Of a DNA stretch of 64,000 bases, positions 20,843 to 56,215 are shown one piece after another; positions within the stretch are counted from its first letter, which is position 1, and every line of letters starts with the position of its first letter. This DNA is from a virus. The stretch covers positions 1 through 64,000 of the IMG/VR virus record IMGVR_UViG_3300018079_000002. One strand, 5' to 3'. The translations under genes were made by a program, and so were the position numbers. The notes under the pieces are model-generated. The model did no database searches, was not told the origin of the DNA, and saw nothing but the letters and a program-made list of their open reading frames with translations.

Positions 20843-21634
20843 TTATCTGCCTGGACGTTGAGCCTGACCCTTGGCCAACCCGGCCTGAATCTTTTGCATT
20901 GAGGTCATCTGGTCCCGCGCAGTCGTCTGGGTGACGTGCTGCGTGCGCTTACCCGTGCCGGGAGGCGTGCCACCACCAGGAGGCGTTTCGCTCTCGAACA
21001 AACGGCCAAACTCCTGCTGGCCTTTCATTTCGCTGACCAGCTCTTTGATGGTCATGGGCGCACCGGTGGCACCAAAGCGAATGTTACCTTCCGCGTCCAC
21101 TACCTGGACGTTCAGGTTGCCGTCCTTCTCATCAACCTTGACCTGGTTACGCACGAACGGCAGCAACAGCTTGGGCACGCCTTTTAATTCGGCGATGGCC
21201 GTGGTGGCGGTGGTGTCCACCAGGTGCGCATAGAGCTGCGTGGTCAGCCCTTTGATGCGGGTGTCGCGTGCAGTCAGCTCCTTGCCATGGGCTTCCTGCA
21301 GCGCCTTCTTGATGTTCTCCAGCTCCTTGGCACCTTTCTTGTCGCCGCCAAGCTTGGCTTCTTCCAGCTTGGACGTGACACTGGCGAGAATTTCCTCGGG
21401 GGTTGCACCGTATTCGGCCAACCCGGACAAGTCCACTACCTTGGTCTTGTAATTCTTCGCTTCGGTCCTTGCGGCCTTGAGCGAACCATTCAAGCCAAGG
21501 ATCGTCTTTACAGACGCCTTCACAATGGGGTCATCCCTGAGGGTGTGCTTGTCTCCGGCTTGGGCGTAAAACCCACGAAAATCTTCCGGGACTGCGTTAA
21601 TATCCGTCACTTCTGGGGCGAAGGCGAATTCCAT
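20843..21634 (-). CDS. Scaffold-like protein
   Basis: 263 residues: VPEDFRGFYAQAGDKHTL at the N-terminus, then about 90 residues of charged helix/coiled coil (LKAARTEAKNYKTKVVDLSG; KKGAKELENIKKALQEAHG), a conserved block VPKLLLPFVRNQVKVDEK, and a Gly/Pro then Gln/Arg-rich end (QKIQAGLAKGQAQRPG). This is the architecture of scaffolds that lie upstream of capsid genes. I see no Ser-protease motif in it or nearby, so how the scaffold leaves the prohead is not explained by this operon. Confidence 0.65.
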   Translation of the reverse strand: MEFAFAPEVTDINAVPEDFRGFYAQAGDKHTLRDDPIVKASVKTILGLNGSLKAARTEAKNYKTKVVDLSGLAEYGATPEEILASVTSKLEEAKLGGDKKGAKELENIKKALQEAHGKELTARDTRIKGLTTQLYAHLVDTTATTAIAELKGVPKLLLPFVRNQVKVDEKDGNLNVQVVDAEGNIRFGATGAPMTIKELVSEMKGQQEFGRLFESETPPGGGTPPGTGKRTQHVTQTTARDQMTSMQKIQAGLAKGQAQRPGR

Positions 21635-21644
21635 ATCTTATTGC

Positions 21645-21941
21645 TCACTTTCTTGTTTCGTTTTGTGACTCACTCACATTCAACGAACCAGGCTCACCCT
21701 GGTCTCGTCGTTTCTCAAGAATGGTTGGTTCCATATCCTGAGTAAAGCTTAATTTGATGCGATATTTCCTCTCACATACCACGCAAATCGGAATGCCACC
21801 CAGGCACTCTTCCTTATGGTAGATGCCCAGCAGGAAGGGGCGTGTCTGTGGGTGCCCACAGGTGGCGCAACGGACGATAGGCCCAGGGGTGGTTGGTGGG
21901 CTCCAGCGCAAACTTAAATCGACGAAGACCGTTATGGCCAT
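21645..21941 (-). CDS. Zinc-ribbon-like small protein
   Basis: 98 residues with two Cys pairs (CATCGHPQTRPFLLGIYHKE and PICVVCERKY), so a zinc ribbon is likely. It starts 10 bases inside the preceding exported gene and ends 10 bases before the scaffold gene. Function unknown. Confidence 0.6.
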   Translation of the reverse strand: MAITVFVDLSLRWSPPTTPGPIVRCATCGHPQTRPFLLGIYHKEECLGGIPICVVCERKYRIKLSFTQDMEPTILEKRRDQGEPGSLNVSESQNETRK

Positions 21942-22552
21942 GGTCCTGCCTCGTTAGTTAGCGTGATTATACCACGGAAGAAAGCAGCATCATTGGTGGT
22001 GGGCGGCACCAGCACCTGGTAGATGCGAAGCCAGTTCACGAAGTCCGTGCTCTGCTCGATTGCTACGAAAGTATTGGTCATGCCCGTCACCTGACTGATC
22101 TGCATTTCCATCTGCAACGGTGGTCGATTGGTGAACAGCGGTCCAGCCGGTTCACTTTCCAGGCCAGCCCAATTGTAGGCCGTGAGGGTAAAGTAATTCG
22201 TCACACCCCTGGGCACGATCATGCAGGCATTGCTGATGGCCGCACCCGGCAGGTCCACACGCTGTGTATACATCCCACTTTCCACGCCTTGATAGAGGCG
22301 ATAACCCGCCAGGTCCGGTTCGGAGTTAGTGCGCCACTGGAAGCAGATGCGGTAGGTGCCCTTCCACACATTGGACTGCGCGAATAAGTTTGACGCTGAC
22401 AAGAAAAAGAAGAACCCTACTCGCAGCAGGTCACAGCGTGTAAGCCACCCCAGCCGTCGTCGATTAAGCTTGGGCGACACGTCCAACCCGGTAAGGCTGA
22501 CATGCTCACTGGGCACCTTGTCCTGGTAACGAGTAGGGTGGTGAGATTTCAT
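21932..22552 (-). CDS. Exported fibronectin-like protein with verrucomicrobial-style C-terminus
   Basis: 206 residues. The ATG at 22552 overlaps the upstream stop (ATGA). A long basic N-region is followed at about residues 43-60 by a hydrophobic signal core (LLRVGFFFFLSASNLFAQ). The mature part has one FN3-like domain (RICFQWRTNSEPDLAGYRLY; VTNYFTLTAYNWAGLESEPA). It ends with a segment of the type VAIEQSTDFVNW...AAFFRGIITL, which resembles the C-terminal domains of many Verrucomicrobia exported proteins. An exported protein inside a head-assembly operon is unusual. Confidence 0.65.
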   Translation of the reverse strand: MKSHHPTRYQDKVPSEHVSLTGLDVSPKLNRRRLGWLTRCDLLRVGFFFFLSASNLFAQSNVWKGTYRICFQWRTNSEPDLAGYRLYQGVESGMYTQRVDLPGAAISNACMIVPRGVTNYFTLTAYNWAGLESEPAGPLFTNRPPLQMEMQISQVTGMTNTFVAIEQSTDFVNWLRIYQVLVPPTTNDAAFFRGIITLTNEAGPWP

Positions 22553-23802
22553 TCAAAGTCCTCTGGGTCTAAGCCTGCGCGCATGAACGCAGTCGGGTTG
22601 GTTTCGGCCAGTTGTTCTAGGTTCAATTCGTTACCGGCCTTGTCCACGAATTGATCAAGCTTCAAGCCACCACGGCGAAACAGTGCACCCTTGGCGTTAC
22701 CCAGCACATCGTCCTGGAAGGCTGCAGGCTGGCGTTTGAGCCACTGTTCGTAATTTACATTGGCGGGCACCGAGCCCACCATGTCCTTGGTCCACTGGTT
22801 ACGCGCCTTGCGCATTAGTTCGTTACGCTCACCCGCGTCCAGATCCACCCACTTGGCACCGGCCTTGGTCTTGGCCAGCTCCCGGAAGTTTACTTCGTTG
22901 CGGTTGCCAAGCATTGTGGGCCGTTCGCCAATCGCTTTGCCGATGCCTTCGCCGTCCAGGTAAGCTACCATCATACTGCGACAATTCGGATGTGCCGGTG
23001 GCCGAGCAGAGAGAGGCTCTAACTTCGTCATCCCCCTTGGTAACTCTCGGTGGGCTAACGGGGATACTCGTCCGTCTCTCGCTCGACACACCGCACTTGT
23101 TCGCCCATCCAACGTGGCTACCCACTTCAGGCCAGCGACAATGTCGGAGTTTTCGGTCCATACGGACTCCCGAGCTGCCGTGCTGACATGGTTTACGGCG
23201 GTGCGAACAATAGTCTCTGCGTTGCGACGGGTTACAGCGAGCAACCCATCAGCGAAATGATTAGCTTTGGTGCCAGCGATGCGCTTGACCATCTGGTCCA
23301 CCGTCTCGCCCTGGACGATACCGAGCTGGAGTGCGTTGACCAGCCGTGCCTGATCCGTGACCCGCAGTTCATCGAACCACTGGCCCAGGGTGGACCCACC
23401 TGCAAAAGGTTTTGCGACCAGTTCTTGTAAGCGTTCGATGGGCACCGCGTTGAACTTCAGCTCAATGGGCAGTGCGCCACGTATCAGTTTCAGCTCCACG
23501 TCTGCCTCCAGGCGCGAAAGGCCGCGCATGCTGCCTCCGAGCTCGGTCTTCACCTGGGCAATCAGCTCCTTGCGCGTATCACGAACAGAGGCAAGCAGCT
23601 CACGAATGCGATTGATGGCCAGGTTGTTGCGCGCCTTGCCAGCGACAGGAGCCAACCGTTCACGTAGTTTCGCGGTTAGCTCCTTGTCGGCCTGCTCCAT
23701 CAGGCGTATCAACCTGCGGACTTCTCCAGCAGCCAATCGGCGCACTTGTATCTGGTGGCGCAGGGTTGCATCCAGCAATTCTTCGTTGGCAGTTCGTGGC
23801 AT
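22549..23802 (-). CDS. Minor head protein, SPP1 gp7 / MuF family
   Basis: 417 residues. The second half holds the MuF signature: RRNAETIVRTAVNHVSTAAR, then WVATLDGRTSAVCRARDGRV and PPAHPNCRSMMVAYLDG. The first half is helical. MuF-like proteins bind the portal inside the prohead and may be ejected with DNA. The start overlaps the UBact-like gene stop by one base (TAATG), so the two are translationally coupled. Confidence 0.85.
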   Translation of the reverse strand: MPRTANEELLDATLRHQIQVRRLAAGEVRRLIRLMEQADKELTAKLRERLAPVAGKARNNLAINRIRELLASVRDTRKELIAQVKTELGGSMRGLSRLEADVELKLIRGALPIELKFNAVPIERLQELVAKPFAGGSTLGQWFDELRVTDQARLVNALQLGIVQGETVDQMVKRIAGTKANHFADGLLAVTRRNAETIVRTAVNHVSTAARESVWTENSDIVAGLKWVATLDGRTSAVCRARDGRVSPLAHRELPRGMTKLEPLSARPPAHPNCRSMMVAYLDGEGIGKAIGERPTMLGNRNEVNFRELAKTKAGAKWVDLDAGERNELMRKARNQWTKDMVGSVPANVNYEQWLKRQPAAFQDDVLGNAKGALFRRGGLKLDQFVDKAGNELNLEQLAETNPTAFMRAGLDPEDFE

Positions 23803-23978
23803 TATTGTCCCGATCTTTGGCGGTAGTTCTTCGCTTGGTCCGGGTCCACACGGCGCATGCGCTTCATCAGCTCATCGACACCGGGTGGCTTCTCGATCTT
23901 CGGGTGCTGTGGTTCGCTACCGTCGCCGGATTGTGGGCGAGGCATCAACGGCCTGGGTTTCTGTTTTTGTTCTGGCAT
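23802..23978 (-). CDS. ubact: Prokaryotic ubiquitin-like protein, UBact family
   Basis: 58 residues from ATG at 23978. It starts MPEQKQKPRPLMPRPQ, continues through a Pro/Gly/Asp-rich disordered stretch (SGDGSEPQHPKIEKPPG), and ends ELMKRMRRVDPDQAKNYRQ-RSGQ. The C-terminal block KRM(R/K)(R/K)VDPDQA(R/K)xYRQR(S/T)G(Q/E) is the hallmark of UBact, the Pup-like modifier of bacteria such as Verrucomicrobia and Nitrospirae. Family knowledge: the terminal Gln is deamidated by a Dop-type enzyme, then ligated to lysines of target proteins by PafA to send them to a bacterial proteasome. Neither enzyme is in this window, so host enzymes would be needed. Upstream gap is four bases; downstream the stop overlaps the MuF-like start. 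Confidence 0.87.
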   Translation of the reverse strand: MPEQKQKPRPLMPRPQSGDGSEPQHPKIEKPPGVDELMKRMRRVDPDQAKNYRQRSGQ

Positions 23979-23982
23979 AAAA

Positions 23983-24147
23983 TTAAACTTCGTCTGCGCG
24001 TTCGGTTGCCTCACTGCAAAGCAAGTGCGCTTTCAGGTGCAATGCACCTATCACTGAGGCATACGAAATGTCATACTCACTGCGAAAGCGTTCTACCAAT
24101 TTGTCGAGCTCGTCCGCAAAATGATCAATCTGTTGTCCTTCGTCCAT
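23983..24147 (-). CDS. Small conserved phage protein (54 aa)
   Basis: 54 codons from ATG at 24147 to TAA at 23983, four bases before the UBact-like start. Sequence: MDEGQQIDHFADELDKLVER, then FRSEYDISYASVIGALHLKA and an acidic end. The amphipathic helix followed by SEYDISYASVIGALHLKAHLL is a pattern I know from many unnamed phage small proteins near the portal gene. Possibly a small head-assembly factor or a partner of the UBact-like protein. Confidence 0.65.
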   Translation of the reverse strand: MDEGQQIDHFADELDKLVERFRSEYDISYASVIGALHLKAHLLCSEATERADEV

Positions 24148-24183: not shown

Positions 24184-24465
24184 TTATGGCTTCAGCTCAG
24201 ACGGGTGCAGCCAGTAGTTGCCTGGAGCCAGTTGGTGCGACTTGTGGACGCACGAGCTCCGATGCTCCTTCTGCTGACCATACTGATCACGACGGTCTGG
24301 GTCCAGCGTAACGAACACCAGGTTGATGGGGCCAACGTAGGTGTTTGGATCATCCAGGTCCAACTCCTTGCGTCCCCACGACGCGGTAATGAGCGCATCG
24401 TGTTGCTTGCTGTGTTCGTCCACGTAGATCACGTGGGCACCGTCTTCGAGTATGATGTTTCGCAT
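24184..24465 (-). CDS. Hypothetical protein
   Basis: 93 residues, mixed alpha/beta (NIILEDGAHVIYVDEHSKQH; PINLVFVTLDPDRRDQYGQQ) with a His-rich second half (KEHRSSCVHKSHQLAPGNYW). It starts one base within the preceding stop. Unnamed small phage protein family; no function inferred. Confidence 0.6.
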   Translation of the reverse strand: MRNIILEDGAHVIYVDEHSKQHDALITASWGRKELDLDDPNTYVGPINLVFVTLDPDRRDQYGQQKEHRSSCVHKSHQLAPGNYWLHPSELKP

Positions 24466-24683
24466 TATGTTCCTTCTTGTTCCTTCTCACGCTGGCGGTT
24501 TAACATATCGTGATGTGCCTGGGCAAACAGTCCCATGGCTTGATAGAATCCACCATCGTAAGAAATTCTCTTCTGGACAAATCCATCGTCCGTCTTCCAG
24601 GTTACGGCCAGACCAAACCCGTCGAAGTGCTCACCCAGCTCCAGGCAGGCTCGTTTCAAAACTTGTTCTTGTGCTGGTGTCAT
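24465..24683 (-). CDS. Hypothetical protein
   Basis: 72 residues from the ATG at 24683, chosen because it overlaps the upstream stop as ATGA. Starts MTPAQEQVLKRACLELGEHF, includes VTWKTDDGFVQKRISYDGGF and ends in a charged helix with EKEQEG. Unknown function. Confidence 0.6.
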   Translation of the reverse strand: MTPAQEQVLKRACLELGEHFDGFGLAVTWKTDDGFVQKRISYDGGFYQAMGLFAQAHHDMLNRQREKEQEGT

Positions 24684-25150
24684 TGCTGCACTTCGTTGAT
24701 TGAGTAATCGCCCTTGTGCTGACGCCATTCCAGCCAGGCTGGGTCTGGCCTGATCAGGTGGTGCTGGAGCGAGTGCAGCAGCCGGTTCGTAATCATGCGC
24801 GCTGCCGGGTGGGGCATGAACACCACGGGTTTGATCTTCATCTGCTTCAGCACTTCCATGTCCTTGGCGAGCAGCCGGTGCACCGAGTCACGCGCCTGAT
24901 TACCACACACCAGGTAGCAATCCCAATCACGACGAAGGATGGCACGTCGCAGAAACAGCAGGTCCGGCGGTAGTCTAACCTTCGCACAAGGCGCGCACTT
25001 GGAGCTGCTGTTCGTCACCCACAGCTCGTGCTGACCGCAGATGAAGTAAAGCTTCTTACCGGTGTGGTTACGCGGGTTGATGCGGAAGACGTTCGGTGCC
25101 TCGGTGCGGGCTGGGTCCCACATGTTCTGGAGTATGGCAAGAATAGTCAT
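24680..25150 (-). CDS. Uracil-DNA-glycosylase-superfamily-like protein (tentative)
   Basis: 156 residues. The N-terminus MTILAILQNMWDPA matches the start of small phage proteins with a UDG-like fold. Later elements LVCGNQARDSVHRLLAKD and PVVFMPHPAARMITNRLL resemble the core strand plus the PHPS/PHPN loop of that superfamily. A Cys pair (CAPC) lies in an insert. If the assignment holds it may recognise altered bases, which would be of interest in a phage that appears to modify thymine. Catalytic residues cannot be verified here and a non-enzymatic role is possible. Confidence 0.4.
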   Translation of the reverse strand: MTILAILQNMWDPARTEAPNVFRINPRNHTGKKLYFICGQHELWVTNSSSKCAPCAKVRLPPDLLFLRRAILRRDWDCYLVCGNQARDSVHRLLAKDMEVLKQMKIKPVVFMPHPAARMITNRLLHSLQHHLIRPDPAWLEWRQHKGDYSINEVQQ

Positions 25151-25632: not shown

Positions 25633-25820
25633 AGGTTATCCACGGTTGGGGGTTCAATGATCTTACCGTCTTCGTCGCACTGATTGACTTTGCGTATGAT
25701 ACCCAGCGGAGTCTTTTCGTGGAAGATCTCCCTCGCCTGGGCTTCGCACATTACACCTTCCGCCATCACGTGCTGAATTGCGCGTGTCGGTGGGGTGTAA
25801 TATTCAATCAGAAAGTTCAT
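25629..25820 (-). CDS. Hypothetical protein
   Basis: 63 residues, starts MNFLIEYYTPPTRAIQHVMA in a 4-bp overlap with the portal stop. Alternating hydrophobic pattern, no motif. Unknown. Confidence 0.55.
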   Translation of the reverse strand: MNFLIEYYTPPTRAIQHVMAEGVMCEAQAREIFHEKTPLGIIRKVNQCDEDGKIIEPPTVDNL

Positions 25821-27265
25821 GCACCTTCAGCCGGTGGTTGTTGCTGCGCACCTGGGTCCATGTCCTGCATGGTCTTGATCATCTGCGCTTCTTCCTGCTT
25901 CAGCTCGTCCACGTCATCTTCCGGGTCGTATTCGTCATGCAAGATACCACGGCGTTTCAACTCATCGATGTAGGCCGTGCGGCTGATGTCGCGCCGATCG
26001 CGTGCCTTGTCCAGCGTGCTCAGGTCCGCCGGGTCAATGGTCTCAGGTCCGAATTCGCGATTGATCTTTACGGTGCCACCGGCTTCGACCTGCATCCAGG
26101 CCGCAGTGAATTCCAGCGCCTTGTTGACCGCATCCTCGAAACGCACCGTTACATCCTGCAAGGGCGAAGTCGCCTCAGCCGAATCCAGGGCACGTGCGGT
26201 CGCCGTCTCCGTGCCTGAACGCTTGCGGAGAAACTCAGCGCCATACTGTGCCATCTGGGTCTCCAGCGCCTCCATATCCTTCTGACCTGCTTCCAGTGCT
26301 GCACCGGTGTGCTCCACATAATAAAATTCGCTGTCTGCATTCGAGGAGAACAACCACTTGTTGGGGCCAACCACAATATCCTTTTCGTCCTGCACCCCAC
26401 TGCCTGCCAGGATGGGAAAGCGAGCCACCGTTAAGCAGTTGCGCTGGTCCGAAGAGCTCTGCCAATGACTGATGTTCAAGTCAGCCAGGTCCGACAATGG
26501 TGGCTTGCCCAGGAAGGGGCACTCACGCGCAGCGTAAAAAGTGACCAGTGGAATAAAGTCCAGGCCGTATTGATATTCGTCGATCTTGACCCACTCCACC
26601 TTGCCACGCTGACTGCGCATGTATTCGTAAACGGTGACTTGTCCTGGTTCGATCACCCGAATCCATTTGCGCTTCACTTCGGCGAAACCGTCCATGACCG
26701 TGTGTTCTTCCTGGATGCGCACATGCACCAGCGTCTCCACCCCGTTGATGGTCTCAGTGCGGGCGAAGATGATGTTCTCCGGCGGTATGTTGATCCAGTA
26801 AGGCCGCAGCTTGTCCTTGCGGTCATCCTCCAGGGTGCGTGGCTGGCCGTCTAGCCGTGGCTGCACACGAGGAAACTCGACCAGCACATGGGAGAAAGAC
26901 TTGGCCAGGCCGTCACGAAACCAGCCACGTGCGAACACGTTCAGCTCGTTGCCTTGCAGGTCCACGTCCTCCAGCAACTCTTCGATCTCCTTCGGCACAT
27001 CATCGTTGAGCTGAATGGGGTCACTGAAGGGACGGCCCACCCAGGACTCCAGCGTCAGCTCCGTCATGTTGAGCAGCGTGGCGCTGGCCAGCCGTGCCGC
27101 ATAGATATCGTCCTTCTCGAACTGGTGCTGGGGCAACAGGGCTTGGCCTGCTGCTCGCATCGCTTCGGTGCCGCCTAGCAGAGCATTCATTTTCTGCCAG
27201 CGAGGAAGCATGGTATTATACGCCTCGCTCGTTACGGATGGGTCATCGGTTTTCTGTTTTGGCAT
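25817..27265 (-). CDS. Portal protein (DUF4055 type)
   Basis: 482 residues. The DUF4055 portal pattern is clear: LLNMTELTLESWVGRPFSD near residue 65, VFARGWFRDGLAKSFSHVLV around 110, IPPENIIFARTE, then YGLDFIPLVTFYAARECPFL and ADLNISHWQSSSDQRNCLTV in the stem/wing region. The acidic C-terminus (EYDPEDDVDELKQEEAQMIK) is usual. Forms the dodecameric DNA channel; follows the large terminase by two bases. Confidence 0.9.
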   Translation of the reverse strand: MPKQKTDDPSVTSEAYNTMLPRWQKMNALLGGTEAMRAAGQALLPQHQFEKDDIYAARLASATLLNMTELTLESWVGRPFSDPIQLNDDVPKEIEELLEDVDLQGNELNVFARGWFRDGLAKSFSHVLVEFPRVQPRLDGQPRTLEDDRKDKLRPYWINIPPENIIFARTETINGVETLVHVRIQEEHTVMDGFAEVKRKWIRVIEPGQVTVYEYMRSQRGKVEWVKIDEYQYGLDFIPLVTFYAARECPFLGKPPLSDLADLNISHWQSSSDQRNCLTVARFPILAGSGVQDEKDIVVGPNKWLFSSNADSEFYYVEHTGAALEAGQKDMEALETQMAQYGAEFLRKRSGTETATARALDSAEATSPLQDVTVRFEDAVNKALEFTAAWMQVEAGGTVKINREFGPETIDPADLSTLDKARDRRDISRTAYIDELKRRGILHDEYDPEDDVDELKQEEAQMIKTMQDMDPGAQQQPPAEGA

Positions 27266-27267
27266 AA

Positions 27268-28800
27268 CTACATGTCACGTTGTTTTACGGTCTTGTTCTG
27301 TTGGCGCACACGGTAACGTGCTTCGTCAGCGATGTGGTCTTCGCTTTCGGAGTCCACGTCATCCAGATCATCATCGTCACGAGGCAACACTGGAATTGTT
27401 CTTAGAAATTGCTGGCAGCGGCCACCGCAGATAAACAGGCCGGGAGTTTCTCGCTTGGAGCTGCCTTTGGGGAGGAAACTTTGGGATAGCAGCAGACGGA
27501 GCTGTTCCCAACCTTGTTTGCGCGAACCGGGACTCTTATCACTTGGGTCCCAGTGGACGCCCAATTTAGCCATGTCACCAGCAACAGATTTTCCAGGTTC
27601 ATAATCGTCAAAGATGCTACTATCTGCCGGCCCACGTCGCACCTTGCCAGACAAGCCCCATTCTTCTTCGCGGTCGAGGATGCCTTGGGCAATGTCCTTG
27701 GACTGCATGCGTATGCCTTCGTTGGAACGGCCACTCCAGCCATACCACTCAGCAATGCGAATCAAGTCGCCACGCACGTCGCCAATCAGACGGCCGTCCC
27801 ACAGGATGGGGTCTTCGCCATTGGACTCAGCCCACCACCCCACCGAGAACGGCGCTGACTGACCATGATCGTAGGAACGATTTAGTTTCCAGCTCCGGGG
27901 TATCAAGCGCAGTGGAAAGTCCGGCAGCACGTGCGTCCTGGCCCACCACACGTCATCAAACATACCGCCAGCGACGATGTTCCAATCACCTTCCAGCCAG
28001 GCCGCAAGCTGCGACTTGTTCTGTGCCGCAGCACGAAGGCGAATAATGTAATCAGGATTCGCGCGCAGCAGGATTTGATTCTCGGACAGCCTGCCATGGA
28101 TGGCCACCCTGGGCGGTTCCACGTTACCCTCGATGTCCATGCTGTTCTTAATGACTGGACCAACCACCTTGCCAGGCAGTATCGGCAAACGCCAGCGCGA
28201 TTTGACCCAGTTATGACCCACCCCATACGGGTTCGTTGTTGAGCGCACCTTGATGGGCAGGCCCACCGCCGTCGAGCGCGCACAGGAGAACATCGACTTG
28301 TAGCACTCGTCACTGGGCCAGGTGGTCAGCTCTTCCCAGCCAATCCACGGATAGGCATGTCCGTGGTAGCTCCAGTAATCCGCCTTCTTCATGAAGTGAC
28401 GGAAGAATAATATTTCGCCCTTGGGCCAGCGCCAAAAGTTCTTCGCCTCATTGAACTTTGCGTCTGGCCAGATCTTAGGAAACCACTTCTTGGACTTGTC
28501 GATCACGTCCTGGAGCTCCGGGTAGGTGCGACGAAAGAGCACCCCACGCCAGTCACTACCCCAACCCTGGTTGACGTGCTGGGCGAAGTCCATCAGCAGC
28601 GCATCGGTCTTACCTGGACCACGGGTGCCTGCATAGAGGCATTCAAACACCGGACACTGCAGGAATGCTTCCTGGCTACCGGGTTGTGGAGCCCAGGTGA
28701 CGGCAATGCGCCTGCCTTCGGGCATCTTGACGTAAGGACGAATGCCTTCCTCTGAGTCTTCCCACTCAAGCACGCCTGGACTGGTTTGGGTCTCGACCAT
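27268..28800 (-). CDS. Terminase large subunit
   Basis: 510 residues. ATPase motor: Walker A-like AGTRGPGKTDALLMDF at about residue 57, Walker B/catalytic acid in YPWIGWEELTTWP, and a coupling region SARSTAVGLPIKVRSTTN-like segment (literally CARSTAVGLPIKVRSTTNPY). The nuclease half includes SYDHGQSAPFSVGWWAESNG and RGPADSSIFDDYEPGKS with Asp residues in RNase H-like positions. Cuts concatemers and drives DNA into the prohead through the portal. The start overlaps the previous stop by one base (TAATG). Confidence 0.92.
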   Translation of the reverse strand: MVETQTSPGVLEWEDSEEGIRPYVKMPEGRRIAVTWAPQPGSQEAFLQCPVFECLYAGTRGPGKTDALLMDFAQHVNQGWGSDWRGVLFRRTYPELQDVIDKSKKWFPKIWPDAKFNEAKNFWRWPKGEILFFRHFMKKADYWSYHGHAYPWIGWEELTTWPSDECYKSMFSCARSTAVGLPIKVRSTTNPYGVGHNWVKSRWRLPILPGKVVGPVIKNSMDIEGNVEPPRVAIHGRLSENQILLRANPDYIIRLRAAAQNKSQLAAWLEGDWNIVAGGMFDDVWWARTHVLPDFPLRLIPRSWKLNRSYDHGQSAPFSVGWWAESNGEDPILWDGRLIGDVRGDLIRIAEWYGWSGRSNEGIRMQSKDIAQGILDREEEWGLSGKVRRGPADSSIFDDYEPGKSVAGDMAKLGVHWDPSDKSPGSRKQGWEQLRLLLSQSFLPKGSSKRETPGLFICGGRCQQFLRTIPVLPRDDDDLDDVDSESEDHIADEARYRVRQQNKTVKQRDM

Positions 28801-41704: not shown

Positions 41705-41878
41705 TTAGGCCGGGTTAAAGATGTGCTCCTGACGGCGAACAATCACACGGTCCAGCCGTTCGATTGCGGCCTGGGTTTCGGCCACCCGGTTCGCCAGCAC
41801 CGAATCCCGGTGGTCCAGGGCTTCCAGGGCGTCCACGGCTTCCACTAAGGCTTTACGAATTTCGGTAATCGTTTTCAT
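41705..41878 (-). CDS. Small coiled-coil protein (57 aa)
   Basis: 57 residues from ATG at 41878, two bases after the preceding stop. KTITEIRKALVEAVDALEAL, then LANRVAETQAAIERLDRVIV: one long amphipathic helix. Ends NPA followed by the 31-base element. Unknown. Confidence 0.55.
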   Translation of the reverse strand: MKTITEIRKALVEAVDALEALDHRDSVLANRVAETQAAIERLDRVIVRRQEHIFNPA

Positions 41879-41880
41879 GA

Positions 41881-41988
41881 TTACAGCCTCGCGAAGCAGA
41901 TCACACACCACACAATTCCGTAAGCAATGGTTCCGGCCAGCTTCAGTGCTGTGCTCGCCTCTTCAATCTTTTCGACTATTGTCGTCAT
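41881..41988 (-). CDS. Tiny membrane protein (35 aa)
   Basis: 35 residues from ATG at 41988: TTIVEKIEEASTALKLAGTI followed by AYGIVWCVICFARL, one probable membrane helix. Preceded by the 31-base element and followed two bases later by the next start, which supports it. Confidence 0.5.
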   Translation of the reverse strand: MTTIVEKIEEASTALKLAGTIAYGIVWCVICFARL

Positions 41989-42019
41989 ATTCTTAGTATC
42001 GGTTGTTTTCGTTTTTACT
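41989..42019 (-). repeat. 31-base intergenic element, copy 3
   Basis: 31 bases between GCC TAA and the ATG at 41988; starts AGTAAAAACGAAAAC, CCGATA at positions 18-23, ends ACTAAGAAT. Confidence 0.65.
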
Positions 42020-42280
42020 TTAGGCGTTCGGGAAGGTGATTTTGACCCACCAGTGCGAATAATTCGCCGTTGAGGCACCGCCGGAGAAAGCCTTGTTGAC
42101 TTCGCCCTTGCCCACCACCACCGCACCCGGCAGCGCAGCAACAACGCCAGCAGCGTATTGTTCTGCGTCCATGCCGTGGCGATAAAAGAAACCACGGCGC
42201 AAGGTGAAGACGCCTTCTTTGTGGGACACGGTGTCCGCCAGCCCCAGCTCCCGGATTTGTTTGACTGTCATTTTCATCAT
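42020..42280 (-). CDS. Hypothetical phage protein
   Basis: 86 residues. TVKQIRELGLADTVSHKEGV, FYRHGMDAEQYAAGVVAALP and NYSHWWVKITFPNA. The Met at residue 3 is an alternative start. Compact alpha/beta protein, unknown function, preceded by the fourth 31-base element. Confidence 0.55.
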   Translation of the reverse strand: MMKMTVKQIRELGLADTVSHKEGVFTLRRGFFYRHGMDAEQYAAGVVAALPGAVVVGKGEVNKAFSGGASTANYSHWWVKITFPNA

Positions 42281-42311
42281 ACCAATACTATCGGCGAAAA
42301 GGCGAAAGACC
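42281..42311 (-). repeat. 31-base intergenic element, copy 4
   Basis: 31 bases between an Ala-stop-like GCT TAA at 42312-42317 and the ATG at 42280; starts GGTCTTTCGCC, CCGATA at positions 18-23, ends GTATTGGT. Here the upstream frame is not a recognisable gene, so the element seems to keep its flank even without one. Confidence 0.6.
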
Positions 42312-42354
42312 TTAAGCCTAAATGACGAATAACCGTCCTTGGACCCTGAAACTG

Positions 42355-42383
42355 CGTAAGTCCCACATCCATAGGGACTTACG
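42355..42383. other. Perfect 10-bp inverted repeat in a 223-base gap
   Basis: CGTAAGTCCC (42355-42364) and GGGACTTACG (42374-42383) with a 9-base loop, inside the gap 42281-42503. No T-run follows it on the minus strand, so it is not a terminator. The loop contains an ATG on the minus strand starting a 16-codon frame (MWDLRSFRVQGRLFVI). The rest of the gap holds several CCTAGG/GCCTAGG motifs and the fourth 31-base element. Could be an operator or translational switch. Confidence 0.5.
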
Positions 42384-42503
42384 TAAAAACCCTCTAAAAC
42401 AGCCTAGGCTGCGTCGAGGCTCCTAGGTGTATAATGGGGCAAAAACCGGCTCCGGCTGGCCTAGGGGCGAGCCTGGAGGGTGAAACCGGCCTGATTTTGT
42501 GGC

Positions 42504-42803
42504 CTAGGGCACACCACCCTTGATGCCCTGGATCAGCGCCTTGGTGGCTCCCTCGGTGATGGCCTTTACCGAGTCGCTGTCCGGCTTGAGAGTTACACCC
42601 TCGGCATTGACGGTGCGAATAAATTCCATCGTCTGTGTCTCGGTTTTTAGCTTCGCGGCCTGACCGAACATCAAGAACGTTTTGTGGCTCACGTCCACGA
42701 TGTGATTCGTCCCTTGGGGTCCGTAGTAAGTAAACCGTTCGCGGTAGGTGCTGCATGCGGTCAGGGTTAGGCTAAGCATCAACAGAAGAAACATTTTGCT
42801 CAT
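42504..42803 (-). CDS. Small lipoprotein
   Basis: 99 residues. Signal peptide and lipobox MSKMFLLLMLSLTLTACSTY (L-T-A-C), so a lipid-anchored envelope protein. The body is polar (GPQGTNHIVDVSHKTFLMFG; DSDSVKAITEGATKALIQG). Overlaps the end of the upstream ASCH gene by 32 bases. Spanin-like roles cannot be excluded, but no inner-membrane partner is evident. Confidence 0.6.
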   Translation of the reverse strand: MSKMFLLLMLSLTLTACSTYRERFTYYGPQGTNHIVDVSHKTFLMFGQAAKLKTETQTMEFIRTVNAEGVTLKPDSDSVKAITEGATKALIQGIKGGVP

Positions 42804-43131
42804 CGTCCAAGCTTAGGACCACGTAGCCGTCAGGCAAGCCGAAACCCTTGTCCATGACATAAAGCACCCGGCGAAATAAATCGTCGCCATGTTTGGCATA
42901 CTCGCCGTGCAGTGGTCCGCAGCCGCAACGTTCTCCCTCGCCACCACTATGACCCGCATGCGTGTAGTCGCGTCCGGTGCCATGGCAACGTTCGCACGGA
43001 TAAAACTTCCGCAGGTGGAGTAAGTCACCCACCTGGAAGCCACGATCGTTTTTCCGGAATTCAAATCGCTTGTCACCGTCTTTGACAGCTTCGAATTGGT
43101 CCGGCCAACTTTTTAGTTCATGCACTTTCAT
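42772..43131 (-). CDS. DUF3850 / ASCH-fold protein
   Basis: 119 residues from ATG at 43131 (ATGA overlap and GGAGAAG upstream). MKVHELKSWPDQFEAVKDGD, then KRFEFRKNDRGFQVGDLLHL is the classical DUF3850 start, an ASCH/PUA-like fold thought to bind RNA or modified nucleotides. An insertion CERCHGTGRDYTHAGHSGGE followed by RCGCG adds a possible zinc site. ASCH proteins have been linked to base modification, of interest here. Confidence 0.75.
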   Translation of the reverse strand: MKVHELKSWPDQFEAVKDGDKRFEFRKNDRGFQVGDLLHLRKFYPCERCHGTGRDYTHAGHSGGEGERCGCGPLHGEYAKHGDDLFRRVLYVMDKGFGLPDGYVVLSLDDEQNVSSVDA

Positions 43132-43532
43132 ATTATTCTTCTCCACTCGTTCATTATCTGAATAAACTGCAGACGGTCTAGGGGCACCGCACCCAGCTTC
43201 AGTGCCTGACTCCGTTGTTCTGGCGACAAGTCGTAGTGCGGCACCGGGTGCGGATTGTGCGCCGAACGTTCAATGTCCAGCTTCCTGGCCATGCGGTGAA
43301 GGATATCCAGGTGGCAGGTGCCAGGGTTGGTCAGCAAGTAACAACTCAGGCGTCCCGAGCTGGTGGTGCTGACCGGCTGGCACTCGTCCACGAAGACCGG
43401 GATGAAGGTAGGCGTGGTGCATTCACCCCGGTCGCACTGCGGGCAATGACCAATCACAATCACCGAGCCATCGTCCAGGAATTGAATCGCCTGGACTCGG
43501 TCGAGGATGGTCATACACGCCATGCAGTTCAT
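43128..43532 (-). CDS. Zinc-motif protein with DUF4031-like C-terminus
   Basis: 134 residues. N-terminal CMAC and CPQC motifs (MNCMACMTILDRVQAIQFLD; GHCPQCDRGECTTPT). The C-terminal block CHLDILHRMARKLDIERSA...HYDLSPEQRSQALKLGAVPL resembles DUF4031. The second DUF4031-like protein lies at 32466-32960. ATGA overlaps on both sides. Confidence 0.5.
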   Translation of the reverse strand: MNCMACMTILDRVQAIQFLDDGSVIVIGHCPQCDRGECTTPTFIPVFVDECQPVSTTSSGRLSCYLLTNPGTCHLDILHRMARKLDIERSAHNPHPVPHYDLSPEQRSQALKLGAVPLDRLQFIQIMNEWRRII

Positions 43533-51858: not shown

Positions 51859-52463
51859 ACTTCGGGTGTTCTGGTGTGTTCAAAGTGCGTCATAAAGTCA
51901 TAGACGCTGTTGGGCAACGGGTCCACTTGCTTCTCGAACCAGCCGTTGACCATACCTAGGGCACCAAGAATATTACGGTTGCCGAGCGCAAGCTGGTCAT
52001 GGCACCACAACCAGAATTCCAGGCGGTCAATCACGTCCAGCCACCAAGCATCGTCCTGACTTAGGATAGGTATTTGGATAGCTTTCTTCTTAGTCACCAC
52101 TGCCTCAGCGGCACGATACTCGATGCCTAACTGGTCGTTGAACCACTTAGCTGGAGCCGGCAAATCGCCTAACCAGCGTTCGGGTACGTCATGCAGTATC
52201 AAGGCCAGGATCAACTCCCGGCTGGCGTCTGGCTTGAGCACCAGCAGCAGCGTTAGGGCGTCCGCCACGTGCTTGCCTACCGTGTATTCACCGACGTGCG
52301 GCAGGGTGTGGCAGCGCCTCGTGTTGTTGCACTCGCGAAACATCAGCACCCGGTGCACCAGCCGTTCCGGTGCCATGTCCGGATGTCTGGCCACCGATGC
52401 ATCTTCGCGCACCGTCTTGAAGGGATGAAATGGTCCATCGTATATCGTCTTAGGCTTATCCAT
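51855..52463 (-). CDS. HD-domain nucleotide phosphohydrolase (YfbR/DatZ-like)
   Basis: 202 residues from ATG at 52463. VGEYTVGKHVADALTLLLVL supplies H65; HDVPERWLGD supplies H91, D92, E95 and D100 in the spacing HDxxExxxxD used by the 5'-deoxynucleotidase YfbR; IDRLEFWLW supplies D136. Related phage HD enzymes (DatZ) clear the canonical dNTP competing with a modified one. Next to a TS-family enzyme it may degrade dTTP/dTMP, but substrate is inference. Confidence 0.75.
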   Translation of the reverse strand: MDKPKTIYDGPFHPFKTVREDASVARHPDMAPERLVHRVLMFRECNNTRRCHTLPHVGEYTVGKHVADALTLLLVLKPDASRELILALILHDVPERWLGDLPAPAKWFNDQLGIEYRAAEAVVTKKKAIQIPILSQDDAWWLDVIDRLEFWLWCHDQLALGNRNILGALGMVNGWFEKQVDPLPNSVYDFMTHFEHTRTPEV

Positions 52464-53496
52464 GCTGCACCCCGTCATCCATGACTTTTTCAAACTTCGC
52501 TTTCCTGCGAAGTAACCATTCGTTGCCTGCGCGTTGCCAGTCCGGTGCTTCGCATGCAGTCAACGCCTCCAGGGCAGCGCCGTAACGTTCTCCACCTTCC
52601 GTCTCCTTGAAACGACGATAGGCGTTGCACATCGGCGCCACCACCTTGCGGAAGAACTTGGTCTTCAGGCCGGGTGGTGTGCCCAGTTCCATAAATGCCT
52701 GCAGGTCCGCTTCCCAGTGCTCGATCAATTCCCCTGGGCTTAGTAACGGCTGGTAATTGGTCGTGCCTTGTTGGTAAGGGTCGTTGTTGGCAACTTTCTG
52801 ATACGGCATATTGCCCAGGGAGAACAACGGCTCGGCGGTGGCCAGGTAGCCGTGCATGTTGTTACTGAACTGGTAGTATGGCCCCATTTCGCAGCCGATC
52901 AGCATGGCCAGGTATTCTTGCAGCACACTGAAGTGGACTGCGTTCGCACCGAGCGCACCCCAAACCAGGTCGTTGCTGCGATTGCAAACTGTCATAGTCA
53001 GACGGCCTGCCGTGTCGCGCAGGAAGTAGGCATGTGTATTGCAGGGCAGGTCTTTGCTTTGCAGCCCCAGGTCGTGGAAACCATCCCACATAGCCAGCAC
53101 CTGCCGACGGCAGTCCGGATTGTTCTTGAGTGCTAGCGCAATCGGGTAGAGCTGGTCCTTGCCGAAGTGCTTGCGCCAGCGAAACCCGTAGGCCGCGTTG
53201 AAGGTCTGGCCGTCATCCGAGAAGTCCGCCATGCGCTTAACATAGGCAGCGACGAAGGCTACGTCATTTCTCCCGGCCAGCATCCACAGGGACTCGACCA
53301 GATGGAAGAACGGATTGCAGTCGCGCTCCGGCCAGAACATTACCCGTTCCCAGGGACGTTCGTATTGCACGATCACCGGTGCCGGGAACACCAGCACTGG
53401 TCCATTTCGGCTTTCGCGTTTGACTCCATGTTGCTGGAGTTGATTCATTGCGCAGGGCAACACCTGGTGCACGTTCCGTGCCTGTATTCCATACAT
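52456..53496 (-). CDS. Thymidylate-synthase-family pyrimidine hydroxymethylase (dUMP candidate)
   Basis: 346 residues. Features of the TS fold: NPFFHLVESLWMLAGRNDVA (E68), FNAAYGFRWRKHFGKDQL, catalytic Cys in LPCNTHAYFLR (C152), and NRSNDLVWGALGANAVHFSV (R173, S174, D176, N185). The NRSNDxxWGxxGAN block is that of hydroxymethylase-type members (dCMP/CMP/dUMP hydroxymethylases) rather than classical TS (RSCDxxLGxPFN). With a hydroxymethyl-dU kinase beside it, making 5-hydroxymethyl-dUMP is most likely. dCMP or plain dTMP synthesis are the alternatives. Confidence 0.75.
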   Translation of the reverse strand: MYGIQARNVHQVLPCAMNQLQQHGVKRESRNGPVLVFPAPVIVQYERPWERVMFWPERDCNPFFHLVESLWMLAGRNDVAFVAAYVKRMADFSDDGQTFNAAYGFRWRKHFGKDQLYPIALALKNNPDCRRQVLAMWDGFHDLGLQSKDLPCNTHAYFLRDTAGRLTMTVCNRSNDLVWGALGANAVHFSVLQEYLAMLIGCEMGPYYQFSNNMHGYLATAEPLFSLGNMPYQKVANNDPYQQGTTNYQPLLSPGELIEHWEADLQAFMELGTPPGLKTKFFRKVVAPMCNAYRRFKETEGGERYGAALEALTACEAPDWQRAGNEWLLRRKAKFEKVMDDGVQHG

Positions 53497-53502
53497 AGGC
53501 TA

Positions 53503-54393
53503 TTACTTGGTTGAGCGGAAGAGTTGTTTCGGTCTTCCCTGACCGAGCCGAGCACGTTCGTATTTGTCGAATTCGCAGAGCGTGTGCTCGACTTCACGCA
53601 TCTCCCATAGGGGCCATTGATCGCACCAATACTTGGGGTGGCGCGAATATTCTAAAAGGTTCATCATGCCCAGGGCGAGCACGAGTTGATCTTCGTCTGA
53701 GTGGTAATTGAAGTGACCGATCTCGCCGTATACAACCCGGCTTAGGCCACGGGCAGCGCCTGGACCGGCGGACGCCCATTCGTTGATGTCCGTGGCCTGC
53801 TCCAGCACCCGTGTGTGGCGTAAGTCAGTGACAATTTCGTAAGCCATGAAGTTACCCACATAGGGAAACTCGCGCAGCAGTTCCCAGGCATAGCGTAAGG
53901 TATTCGCCTTACCCATCTTGAACCATAACTCCTTGTAGCAGTCACGTATGGGTGCAAGGATTTCGGCGATACCTTCAAACTTCGTTTTACCGGCTGGTGT
54001 CTTAAGCATGTAGGCCGAAGTTACAATGGGTGGCTCCAGCTTGGCCACCTGTGCACGGCAGCGCGTCGTGTCCCAGCCCTTCTCCAGGAGGATATGTGCC
54101 ATTGCCTCCAGGGTTGAAATGCGATTGAAGAAACGGCAGGCACACATGGCAATGACAACCTTGGGGTCATGCTTCAAGGGCTTGCGGATGTTCTTCTTGA
54201 TCCACCGCGTGGTGGTGTCGTCCTCGCGGAAGACGTTGCAAAAGCGATACGTCTGGAGTATCGGGTCCGTGGTCCAGGATGAGGCAGGCGTCTTGGCTTC
54301 GGTGCGCATCAGATAAATCGCGTAGCGCGTTGATGCGTAACCAAAGAACGGAGCCAGCCCCACCCACTCTTTGGTGGGCGGTAGCTCTTTCAT
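53503..54393 (-). CDS. Alpha-glutamyl/putrescinyl-thymine pyrophosphorylase-like amino acid:DNA transferase
   Basis: 296 residues. The N-terminal block STRYAIYLMRTEAKTPASSW, then TDPILQTYRFCNVFREDDTT and WIKKN is the diagnostic region of the DNA-hypermodification proteins described with 5-hmdU kinases. Later, LLREFPYVGNFMAYEIVTDL (residues 162-181) is a helix-hairpin-helix-like loop with Asp180, in line with the DNA-glycosylase-related fold of this family. Family knowledge: displaces (pyro)phosphate from 5-phospho-hydroxymethyl-dU in DNA and installs an amino-acid amine. Starts in a 4-bp overlap with the kinase gene. Confidence 0.8.
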   Translation of the reverse strand: MKELPPTKEWVGLAPFFGYASTRYAIYLMRTEAKTPASSWTTDPILQTYRFCNVFREDDTTTRWIKKNIRKPLKHDPKVVIAMCACRFFNRISTLEAMAHILLEKGWDTTRCRAQVAKLEPPIVTSAYMLKTPAGKTKFEGIAEILAPIRDCYKELWFKMGKANTLRYAWELLREFPYVGNFMAYEIVTDLRHTRVLEQATDINEWASAGPGAARGLSRVVYGEIGHFNYHSDEDQLVLALGMMNLLEYSRHPKYWCDQWPLWEMREVEHTLCEFDKYERARLGQGRPKQLFRSTK

Positions 54394-54947
54394 GCCAACC
54401 CCAGCATTTCTTCTATGAGGTCAGCAGCCTGCTGACGGTTGCAACGGAAGACCTGGACCGGTTTACCCGGCAGCTCCTCGAACCGTTGCGCCGCACGTTT
54501 GGCTTGGCTGTGCTTGGCGGTGGTGTTCTTGGTTGGCACCGGCTCCATTTCGCCTCGCGCCTGACGGCGTGCATTGACACCGGCGAGGCAGGTTTCGATT
54601 GTTTCCTCGATGAATACCACCCGGCAGTCAGGCAGCTCCTTGGTGCGATTGATCTCGTTTGTCAGCAGCAGCCCCTCGAACAGCACGTTGCGTCCGAGTG
54701 CTATCTGTTCCTGGATAAGTTGATACGTTGTATCAATCTTAGTGATGGTATCACAACCACCGCACGGTGACTCATAGTGTCCCAGGACGGCCAGCTCTGG
54801 CGTCCCTTCACCATTGCGCATGATGTAATACAAAGGCTGCTTGCGGTCTTCCACTCGCACCGGCTCCTTGTTGGAGTAGAGACTCATAATGTGACGAACA
54901 AGGAATGACTTACCTGAGCCACTTGTTCCACGAATATTGATGATCAT
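54390..54947 (-). CDS. 5-hydroxymethyl-dU DNA kinase-like P-loop protein
   Basis: 185 residues. Walker A GTSGSGKS at residues 7-14, a GHYESPCGGCDTITKIDTTY block (57-76) characteristic of phage 5-HMUD kinases, and a Walker B-like NVLFEGLLLTNE (87-98). A basic lid follows (NARRQARGEMEPVPTKNTTA). In the known scheme it phosphorylates the hydroxymethyl group of 5-hmdU already in DNA, priming it for the transferase encoded next. Promoter candidate and direct repeats lie upstream (55031-55106). Confidence 0.8.
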   Translation of the reverse strand: MIINIRGTSGSGKSFLVRHIMSLYSNKEPVRVEDRKQPLYYIMRNGEGTPELAVLGHYESPCGGCDTITKIDTTYQLIQEQIALGRNVLFEGLLLTNEINRTKELPDCRVVFIEETIETCLAGVNARRQARGEMEPVPTKNTTAKHSQAKRAAQRFEELPGKPVQVFRCNRQQAADLIEEMLGLA

Positions 54948-55030
54948 AGACTGCTTTGCTCAAACCGACGTTGACTGCTCACTAGACTGGTTTACCCGCC
55001 ATCCGTGCGGACCAGCTATCTGAATGTTGT

Positions 55031-55059
55031 CATTTTCGCTGACGCACGTAAAAAGGCAA
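55031..55059 (-). promoter_or_regulatory. Promoter candidate upstream of the modification kinase
   Basis: TTGCCT (55059-55054), T-rich spacer start, 17 bases, then AAAATG (55036-55031) followed by ACAAC. Matches the 40259-40287 candidate at the -35 and in the trailing GACAAC, but the -10 is poor. The gap 54948-55101 has no other gene. Confidence 0.35.
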
Positions 55060-55074
55060 CGATAAGTTACTAAA

Positions 55075-55106
55075 GGTTATTAACGTGTTATGCACCGGTT
55101 ATTAAC
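55075..55106. repeat. Direct repeats GGTTATTAAC, 22 bp apart
   Basis: Two identical 10-bp copies at 55075-55084 and 55097-55106 (GTTAATAACC on the minus strand), start-to-start 22 bp, i.e. two helical turns, just upstream of the promoter candidate at 55031-55059. The second copy includes the stop codon of the 59-aa gene. Fits an activator or repressor dimer site. Confidence 0.5.
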
Positions 55107-55281
55107 TTTCCAGGCCCACGGCCTTTAGGGCACGCTGGGCAATCATTTCAAACTCGGCCATGGAGAGGCGCTGGGTGGAGCCGGTTAAGTTGTTAACCAC
55201 CAGCGCGTAGTCCTCCGGCGGACGGATAATGAAGGTTGATTCCTTCGAACGAAGAACCATTTCCACAAATTCGCCTTTCAT
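55102..55281 (-). CDS. Small protein (59 aa)
   Basis: 59 codons from ATG at 55281 (ATGA overlap with the upstream stop) to TAA at 55102. MKGEFVEMVLRSKESTFIIR, then PPEDYALVVNNLTGSTQRLS and an amphipathic helix AEFEMIAQRALKAVGL. Codon use and coupling support it. Unknown function. Confidence 0.6.
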   Translation of the reverse strand: MKGEFVEMVLRSKESTFIIRPPEDYALVVNNLTGSTQRLSMAEFEMIAQRALKAVGLES

Positions 55282-55490
55282 ATCATTGGCCCACTCTTAA
55301 GTTGATCAACGTAGGCCGCATTGGTGCGGCCAGTTGCCCTGCAGGAACGGCACTGCACTGCTGAGAAGTCAGAAGACTTGACGCGATAACCATCGAAAGC
55401 CGAACAACGGGCATTACGTTGCACCACTACCCAGTTGCGCTCGGCCACCGGCTTCTTACGTTCCGGACAATGACAGTTGAACCAATGCAT
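55278..55490 (-). CDS. Small Cys-rich protein
   Basis: 70 residues. WVVVQRNARCSAFDGYRVKS followed by AVQCRSCRATGRTNAAYVDQ is a pattern seen in many unnamed phage zinc proteins; N-terminal CHCPERK adds further Cys. Starts right after the discoidin-like gene. Unknown. Confidence 0.6.
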   Translation of the reverse strand: MHWFNCHCPERKKPVAERNWVVVQRNARCSAFDGYRVKSSDFSAVQCRSCRATGRTNAAYVDQLKSGPMI

Positions 55491-56215
55491 TACCGTGCGA
55501 GCTGTTCGGTGCGATAAAAGTTGCCACTGTTGGTGCTAATCCTGGGGCCAACCCAGCGATGCTCGTAATTGGTGGTAATGGTTTCGGCTTTGCGGGTCCA
55601 GGTGTCCTCCAGGCGCATCTTGCTGTCGATACCATAGCGCAGGTTCGGCATACCACGCATGATCACCACGTCCTGGCGGTCAGTCACTGAGTGCCCGTTC
55701 TGCTGGAATACGAAAATACGGTGCTGCATTTCCAGCAATGGCCCATCAAAGCGATAACCGAACACGGCCAACTCCCCGATCTCCAGATTAGTCGGATACT
55801 TAACCTGGATACGAATAAACTTCGCTGGCCGTCGCACCTGGAGCACCTGCGGAAAGTTGACCCACTGCTGGAAGCGATAGCTAAAGGTGGTCACGTCCGG
55901 GTCAAAGGCGACATTGGTGGTGGCGCTATTGAACGGCAGGTTGGAGACAAACACGAAGAAGTTGGTGGGCGCATTGCTCGCCCTGGGCAACACTTCCAGG
56001 TGATTGATCCAATTGGTTTGGGCGAATGACAACTCCAGCCACGGGGTGTCCTCAAAGCCACTGACCGCAAACGTATTCGTGTTTCCATCGATGGCATTCG
56101 AGGCTGGCAGCACCTGTGACGACTGTGACGCGGACGCGCCTCTGGTGACGTTCGAATTCTGCGCATGAATAACGCCTGTTAGGAGCAGGCCCATTAGTAT
56201 GATTATTCTTTTCAT
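55490..56215 (-). CDS. Exported discoidin (F5/8 type C)-like protein
   Basis: 241 residues. Signal peptide MKRIIILMGLLLTGVIHAQ. Residues about 20-150 follow the F5/8C plan: NVTRGASASQSSQVLPASNA with the IDGNTNTFA turn, DTPWLELSFAQTNWINHLEV, and FIRIQVKYPTNLEIGELAVF. The C-terminal part ends ISTNSGNFYRTEQLAR. F5/8C domains bind sugars or surfaces. Located inside the DNA-modification block, between the flavoprotein and the kinase, which is unexpected. May act at the cell surface or be structural. Confidence 0.65.
   Translation of the reverse strand: MKRIIILMGLLLTGVIHAQNSNVTRGASASQSSQVLPASNAIDGNTNTFAVSGFEDTPWLELSFAQTNWINHLEVLPRASNAPTNFFVFVSNLPFNSATTNVAFDPDVTTFSYRFQQWVNFPQVLQVRRPAKFIRIQVKYPTNLEIGELAVFGYRFDGPLLEMQHRIFVFQQNGHSVTDRQDVVIMRGMPNLRYGIDSKMRLEDTWTRKAETITTNYEHRWVGPRISTNSGNFYRTEQLAR

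Follow-up and report, generated by a model that had tools for sequence, protein, structure and literature searches.

Does a short reading frame in the head operon of an uncultivated virus encode a genuine ubiquitin-like modifier, and, if it does, where did the gene come from and how could it serve a phage? The UBact family was described by Lehmann et al. in 2017 (cited in PMC12751074), Pup orthologues in Verrucomicrobiota having been noted earlier (PMC2588565). UBact is thought to be attached to proteins, directing them to the proteasome; the role of UBact-proteasome systems in Gram-negative bacteria is largely unknown. The stretch of DNA analysed here (the window) comprises 64 kb of a 69,987-base virus record from IMG/VR. 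The original prediction placed in it, at positions 23802-23978, a UBact-type modifier with an MPE start, a disordered Pro/Gly-rich middle and a terminal block ending in Gln, coupled by TAATG to a MuF-like head gene and lacking a visible ligase.

These features are all present. The coordinates were right, and the strand, which had been left unstated, is minus: read from 23978 to 23802, the gene encodes MPEQKQKPRPLMPRPQSGDGSEPQHPKIEKPPGVDELMKRMRRVDPDQAKNYRQRSGQ, followed by a stop codon, i.e., a protein of 58 amino acids ending in ...YRQRSGQ; the plus-strand reading of the same interval is nonsense. The sequence agrees with the description in its MPE start, the Pro richness of its first half, its terminal block and its C-terminal Gln; the Verrucomicrobiota UBacts likewise begin with MP[DE]Q, which backs the choice of the ATG start. 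The stop codon of the UBact gene and the start codon of the MuF gene overlap exactly as TAATG, and no promoter or terminator dedicated to UBact was found above chance. The DNA motif for the C-terminal block has a single occurrence in the window and is absent from all 100 shuffles.

A profile search without a UBact match would have refuted the prediction, and this did not happen. The Pfam profile PF20513 (UBact) matched the phage protein with 67.4 bits (E = 9.1e-19; curated cut-off 27.8 bits) over residues 16-58, reaching the final position of the profile, and the NCBIfam equivalog model NF033388 with 67.3 bits (E = 9.8e-19; curated cut-off 35 bits) over residues 5-58. The Pup family (PF05639) gave no match in the Pfam scan at E up to 1, UBact being the sole family listed. 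A chance origin of the match is excluded. Moreover, the phage protein retains each of the nine residues that do not vary among 111 bacterial UBacts (P23, D45, P46, A49, Y52, R53, Q54, R55, and G57); this set includes the C-terminal YRQR.G[E/Q] block, the phage version of which is YRQRSGQ directly before the stop. Two near-invariant positions are altered: G22, found in 110 of the 111 bacterial proteins, is replaced by E (also present in one of them), and R/K51, found in 109, by N (also present in two). There is also a one-residue insertion at positions 32-33 relative to the Verrucomicrobiota UBacts. The size and architecture are those of the family, with 58 amino acids (about 50-65 in the family), a disordered Pro/Gly-rich half and a helical second half. 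In the AF2 model (mean pLDDT 65.5) the chain is extended and of low confidence up to residue 33 (pLDDT 53-59 for residues 1-30), followed by helices 34-44 and 46-56 with a break at DP; this predicted model resembles a Pup-type modifier. Two curated profiles, the alignment with 111 bacterial UBacts and the tree described below show that the 58-residue product is a genuine member of the UBact family. The family was already known, and the new element is its carriage by a virus as a stand-alone gene; no phage-borne Pup or UBact has been reported in the literature that we searched, which did not cover subscription papers and preprints.

The record contains tailed-phage genes (terminase, portal, MuF, scaffold, tape measure, and minor tail protein) and replication-type genes (primase, family A polymerase, ribonucleotide reductase, and Dda-like helicase). 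The head genes lie on the minus strand and encode the terminase large subunit (27268-28800; phrog_979, E = 4.6e-29), the portal protein (25817-27265; PF13264; phrog_145, E = 2.3e-135; 56% identity to Mesyanzhinovviridae portals), the MuF-type head morphogenesis protein (22549-23802; PF04233, E = 6.8e-12; phrog_241, E = 1.3e-129; 50% identical to that of Bordetella phage FP1), and the head scaffolding protein (20843-21634; phrog_206, E = 6.4e-45). A secreted-type protein of 206 amino acids (21932-22552, minus strand) is encoded between MuF and the scaffold. Between the portal and UBact genes, on the same strand, there are a 156-codon gene (24680-25150) shared only with the closest relative found, locus L003 (58% identity), two ORFs of unknown function in the variable portal-MuF slot (24465-24728, 87 aa; 24184-24465, 93 aa), and, directly upstream of UBact with a 4-base gap, an ORF of 54 aa (23983-24147), likewise of unknown function, with no significant Pfam match and no homologue in the fetched loci.

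The best phage records for the portal and MuF proteins are Bordetella phages FP1 and CN1 and Pseudomonas phages M6 and Epa5 (Mesyanzhinovviridae; 48-56% identity), and the phage is a siphovirus related to this family, as judged from the head genes only. M6 and FP1 share with it the order of terminase, portal, small gene(s), MuF and scaffold, with about 56% identity for the portal and 48-50% for MuF. They differ, however, in having a gene for a hydrophobic peptide (43 aa in M6, 37 aa in FP1) in the place of UBact, and our record differs from them in its length (about 70 kb) and Verrucomicrobiota-like signature. The idea that the small pre-MuF gene of M6 and FP1 is a degenerate UBact was rejected, as the products are hydrophobic peptides. 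M6 also carries thymidine hypermodification genes, as does this phage, in which they form a cluster on the minus strand (52456-57950 of the window) encoding a thymidylate-synthase-like protein, 5-hmdU DNA kinase, a small P-loop protein, an FAD oxidoreductase, and an amino acid:DNA transferase; the DNA of the phage is therefore likely, by inference from the cluster, to be hypermodified.

In L003 (portal 68%, MuF 65% identity) UBact is missing from this position, which shows that the lineage as a whole can do without the gene; the pre-MuF gene of L003 (2670-3017 of that locus, plus strand) encodes a DUF6527 protein (PF20137, 48.7 bits). DUF6527 has been linked to bacterial ubiquitin-like operons; no supporting paper was found. 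In L003, the gene between MuF and the scaffold also encodes a secreted-type protein, but a different one from that of 21932-22552. As UBact is replaced by peptide genes in M6 and FP1 and by the DUF6527 gene in L003, the portal-MuF gap is a variable slot. The relatives that we examined lack the gene, and the other finding that would have told against the prediction, related phages keeping the gene with a decayed C-terminal block, did not arise. These comparisons bear on one of the functions proposed for the tag, namely that host PafA couples the tag to lysine residues in head proteins (portal, MuF, scaffold, or capsid), aiding assembly or protecting them, and that it is perhaps packaged as well. 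The tight coupling of UBact to MuF speaks for such a virion function. However, relatives with the same head genes manage without UBact, and their portal-MuF slot holds unrelated small genes, as in a cargo site; this explanation is unlikely.

Enzymes acting on the tag appear to be absent from the phage. No match to the Pup ligase family was found in the 69,987-base record, and searches with the PafA/Dop, proteasome and proteasomal ATPase proteins encoded in bacterial UBact loci gave no match at E 1e-5 in the window or in the remaining 6 kb, where a search for such genes had been advised. In contrast, all 118 bacterial loci recovered by a pattern scan of species genomes for the UBact C-terminal end have a PafA/Dop-like or a proteasome gene within about 8 kb (112 and 113 loci, together 118), and the same is true of 45 out of 45 loci from genome searches, some genomes of which overlap with the first set. 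The phage gene does not meet this usual context of an adjoining Pup ligase/Dop and proteasome, which is typical of UBact and is not part of the definition of the protein. The claim of a UBact modifier in a phage head operon without a visible ligase is thus supported by the profiles, the alignment, the tree, the head-gene context, and the lack of a Pup ligase or proteasome in the 70 kb record.

Neither the exact C-terminal pattern nor alignment revealed UBact in 2.9 million viral contigs, and none was found in 50,697 phage records, in plasmids, or in an HMM search of more than 80 loci of related phages (1.26 Mb). The viral searches omit records very near the window, and diverged forms may have been missed. 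Two faint HMM matches in relatives (L165 and L169) were rejected as Pro/Arg-rich stretches. The phage protein alone as a query retrieved no close relative from viral or genome contigs; the C-terminal DNA pattern did recover bacterial UBacts. Viral contigs yielded no PafA, and a Mycobacterium tuberculosis Pup query found no Pup-like sequence in the phage collection. Two Pup-ligase matches (41865-43394; best identity 37.7%) were seen in MT835496.1, a 159-kb record from human faeces named 'Bacteriophage sp.'; the record is unannotated and could be a bacterial chromosome deposited as phage.

Since the record comes from an uncultivated virus in IMG/VR and no second copy was found, an artefact could be suspected, in which a chimeric or contaminated assembly fused a bacterial UBact to a phage contig. 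Against this, UBact and MuF share bases in TAATG, the proteasome subunit genes found downstream of bacterial UBacts are absent, and even the closest bacterial UBact found shares only 39 of 58 positions. An artefact is all but excluded.

All the nearest bacterial relatives of the phage UBact belong to the Verrucomicrobiota type; the best match, that of locus L050 (39 of 58 positions identical), is encoded beside a proteasome subunit and two homologues of Pup_ligase. The Verrucomicrobiota UBacts (PF20513/NF033388) resemble the phage UBact in length, in the MP[DE]Q..K.RP start, in the KRM..VDP.QAK.YRQR.GQ end with terminal Gln, and in profile scores; the phage UBact is unlike them in being phage-encoded, with no Pup ligase or proteasome genes nearby, and in having G22E, R/K51N and the insertion. 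A maximum-likelihood tree built from 112 sequences places the phage protein inside an essentially Verrucomicrobiota set of 26 rows (support 95/82). The alignment has 61 columns and the phage sits on a long branch, making finer placement impossible; with this reservation, the phage UBact probably descends from within the bacterial UBacts, from the Verrucomicrobiota clade. Comparison of the terminal Q/E with ligase copy number was uninformative within the 8-kb loci. Some bacterial loci were peculiar in themselves. First, a Verrucomicrobiota UBact beside a normal operon (L273, G417:C74:96987-97088) ends in ...KKVDPAAARIT before the stop, having lost the YRQR end, which could reflect a frameshift, an assembly error or a broken tag. 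Second, the MAG contigs L013, L060, L037 and L064 are labelled Klebsiella, Methanoregulaceae or Akkermansia and have UBact operons of the Verrucomicrobiota or Armatimonadota type. The Klebsiella label of L013, which is one of the best-scoring bacterial UBacts, is wrong, as its genome (G003) belongs to the family of G004, discussed below; the other three appear to be mislabelled or misbinned.

The second line of evidence on the host, independent of the tree, is the tetranucleotide signature. Its deviation in the window correlates best with genomes G004 (r = 0.76), G003 (0.73) and G005 (0.71), which carry UBacts among those closest to that of the phage; r is 0.16-0.59 with other sampled Verrucomicrobiota genomes and at most 0.26 with four other UBact-bearing phyla (Nitrospirota, Armatimonadota, Latescibacterota, and Bipolaricaulota). 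The genome with the closest UBact (G001) gave only 0.27, and some other UBact-bearing Verrucomicrobiota likewise mismatch. Within the family to which G004 belongs, 8 of 11 genomes carry UBact, and within its order 81 of 320 do. The 206-residue protein, which is akin to domains repeated in Verrucomicrobiota genomes, has homologues in 42 of 97 genomes of that order; as it also matches three places in the single Nitrospira genome tested, its support is weak. A CRISPR link was rejected, the 35-base match (89%) in G493 being a Walker-A coding stretch without repeats. When 293 genomes of the order were searched with MuF for related prophages, only one full-length match appeared, a distant one (30%), and this provides no provirus link to a host. 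The host is likely to be a member of Verrucomicrobiota with a UBact system, by composition and tree only; the UBact-bearing host implied by the original prediction is supported by the tree, the signature, and the prevalence of UBact in the family.

The gene could still be a passenger, recently acquired from a host and without a role for the phage, as only a single phage with UBact is known and the close relative L003 lacks it. This is very unlikely. The best bacterial match found agrees at no more than 39 of 58 positions, and yet, over the final 24 codons, comparison with 16 bacterial genes gave pS of 0.62-1.09 and pN of 0.06-0.23, i.e., synonymous differences are near saturation and amino-acid differences few. 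Such a pattern probably reflects long divergence under protein-level selection on at least one side of the comparison, inferred from sequence alone. Moreover, the GC3 of the gene (0.64) equals that of neighbouring phage genes, and the gene is fitted to the MuF start.

Three functions had been proposed (use of host enzymes, decoy, and conjugation in the virion); none is established, and they can be ranked by inference only. In Pup with a C-terminal Gln, deamidation by Dop is required before PafA ligates the tag to lysine (PMC8223512; PMC7947786). That UBact chemistry is the same is argued by analogy, from the ligase homology (PF03136 in UBact loci), and is established for Pup only. As a Gln-ended tag needs Dop and then PafA, and the record has neither, the phage tag could act only via host enzymes. 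The explanation we propose is that an ancestor of the phage acquired UBact from a Verrucomicrobiota host, where it belonged to the UBact-proteasome operon, and retained it as a stand-alone gene of the late head operon. Co-translated with MuF, the tag would be made late together with the virion proteins, as inferred from the gene order and TAATG overlap. A Dop-type host enzyme would convert the terminal Gln to Glu, and PafA would then join the tag to lysines, a step inferred from established Pup chemistry and from the pair of Pup_ligase paralogues that the nearest bacterial operon contains. The phage tag may thereby enter, or occupy, the host conjugation pathway. The most probable outcome would be competition, a plentiful, slightly altered tag drawing PafA, Dop and the proteasomal ATPase off phage proteins or yielding conjugates that are degraded poorly. 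We lean, by a narrow margin, towards the whole explanation of a host-derived late tag entering the host Dop/PafA pathway, its function, deamidation and conjugation all being inferred. The evidence comes from a single genome and a short protein, without experiments, and conservation within the phage lineage could not be assessed.

As for the direction of the effect, productive tagging is possible: with extra UBact supplied, PafA and the proteasome of the host would break down larger amounts of host (or defence) protein during infection, which would recycle amino acids or remove inhibitors. The whole conjugation block is intact, and most genomes of the predicted host family encode the UBact system. 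On the other hand, PafA, and not the tag, chooses substrates, the gene is in the late head operon and not among early takeover genes, and there is no phage ligase for redirecting targets; the benefit of simply supplying more tag is unclear, as free tag gives no target choice. A competitor or decoy is our first choice because of the late-operon place, the intact enzyme-facing end, the two altered near-invariant sites, and the absence of an own ligase; it is ranked above its rivals by inference alone, and we would sooner doubt than assert it. The departures G22E and R/K51N are such as a modified competitor might show and need not mean loss of function, as the same changes occur in bacterial UBacts (R51N in two, G22E in one).

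Mycobacteriophage proteins are reportedly poor in lysine, which was proposed to be an evasion of pupylation (PMC10665810). There is no sign of lysine avoidance in this phage, the structural proteins containing 3.95% Lys vs. 3.77% in M6, and lysine deserts occur in 5 of 41 phage proteins. The lack of depletion is compatible with another coping strategy and does not prove one.

Among known systems, the Pup of Actinomycetota (PF05639) is expected to be alike in being a small disordered tag with a C-terminal G[E/Q] and Dop/PafA chemistry (PMC8223512; PMC7947786; PMC2588565); its C-terminal block is different. The closest parallel is v-ubi of baculovirus AcMNPV, a virus-borne, slightly diverged host protein tag that is made late (PMC4584293). 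It differs, however, in its unrelated fold and enzymes and in the eukaryotic host, and the two are convergent in idea only.

If the phage has kept a conjugation-competent UBact, as inferred, the UBact system matters during infection, as a threat or a tool, and the phage protein probably works by tapping or jamming host protein disposal; this would be a bacterial parallel to the baculovirus ubiquitin. The phage UBact also permits a direct comparison of host and phage tags with one PafA/Dop/proteasome set. A bolder reading, which we hold to be less likely than not, is that host PafA attaches the altered phage tag late, and that the marked phage or virion proteins are handled differently by the host proteasome. 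If this is true, the phage would be the first one found to encode a Pup/UBact-type modifier, the tag would be the prokaryotic equivalent of viral ubiquitin, and the UBact-proteasome system would take part in phage-host conflict.
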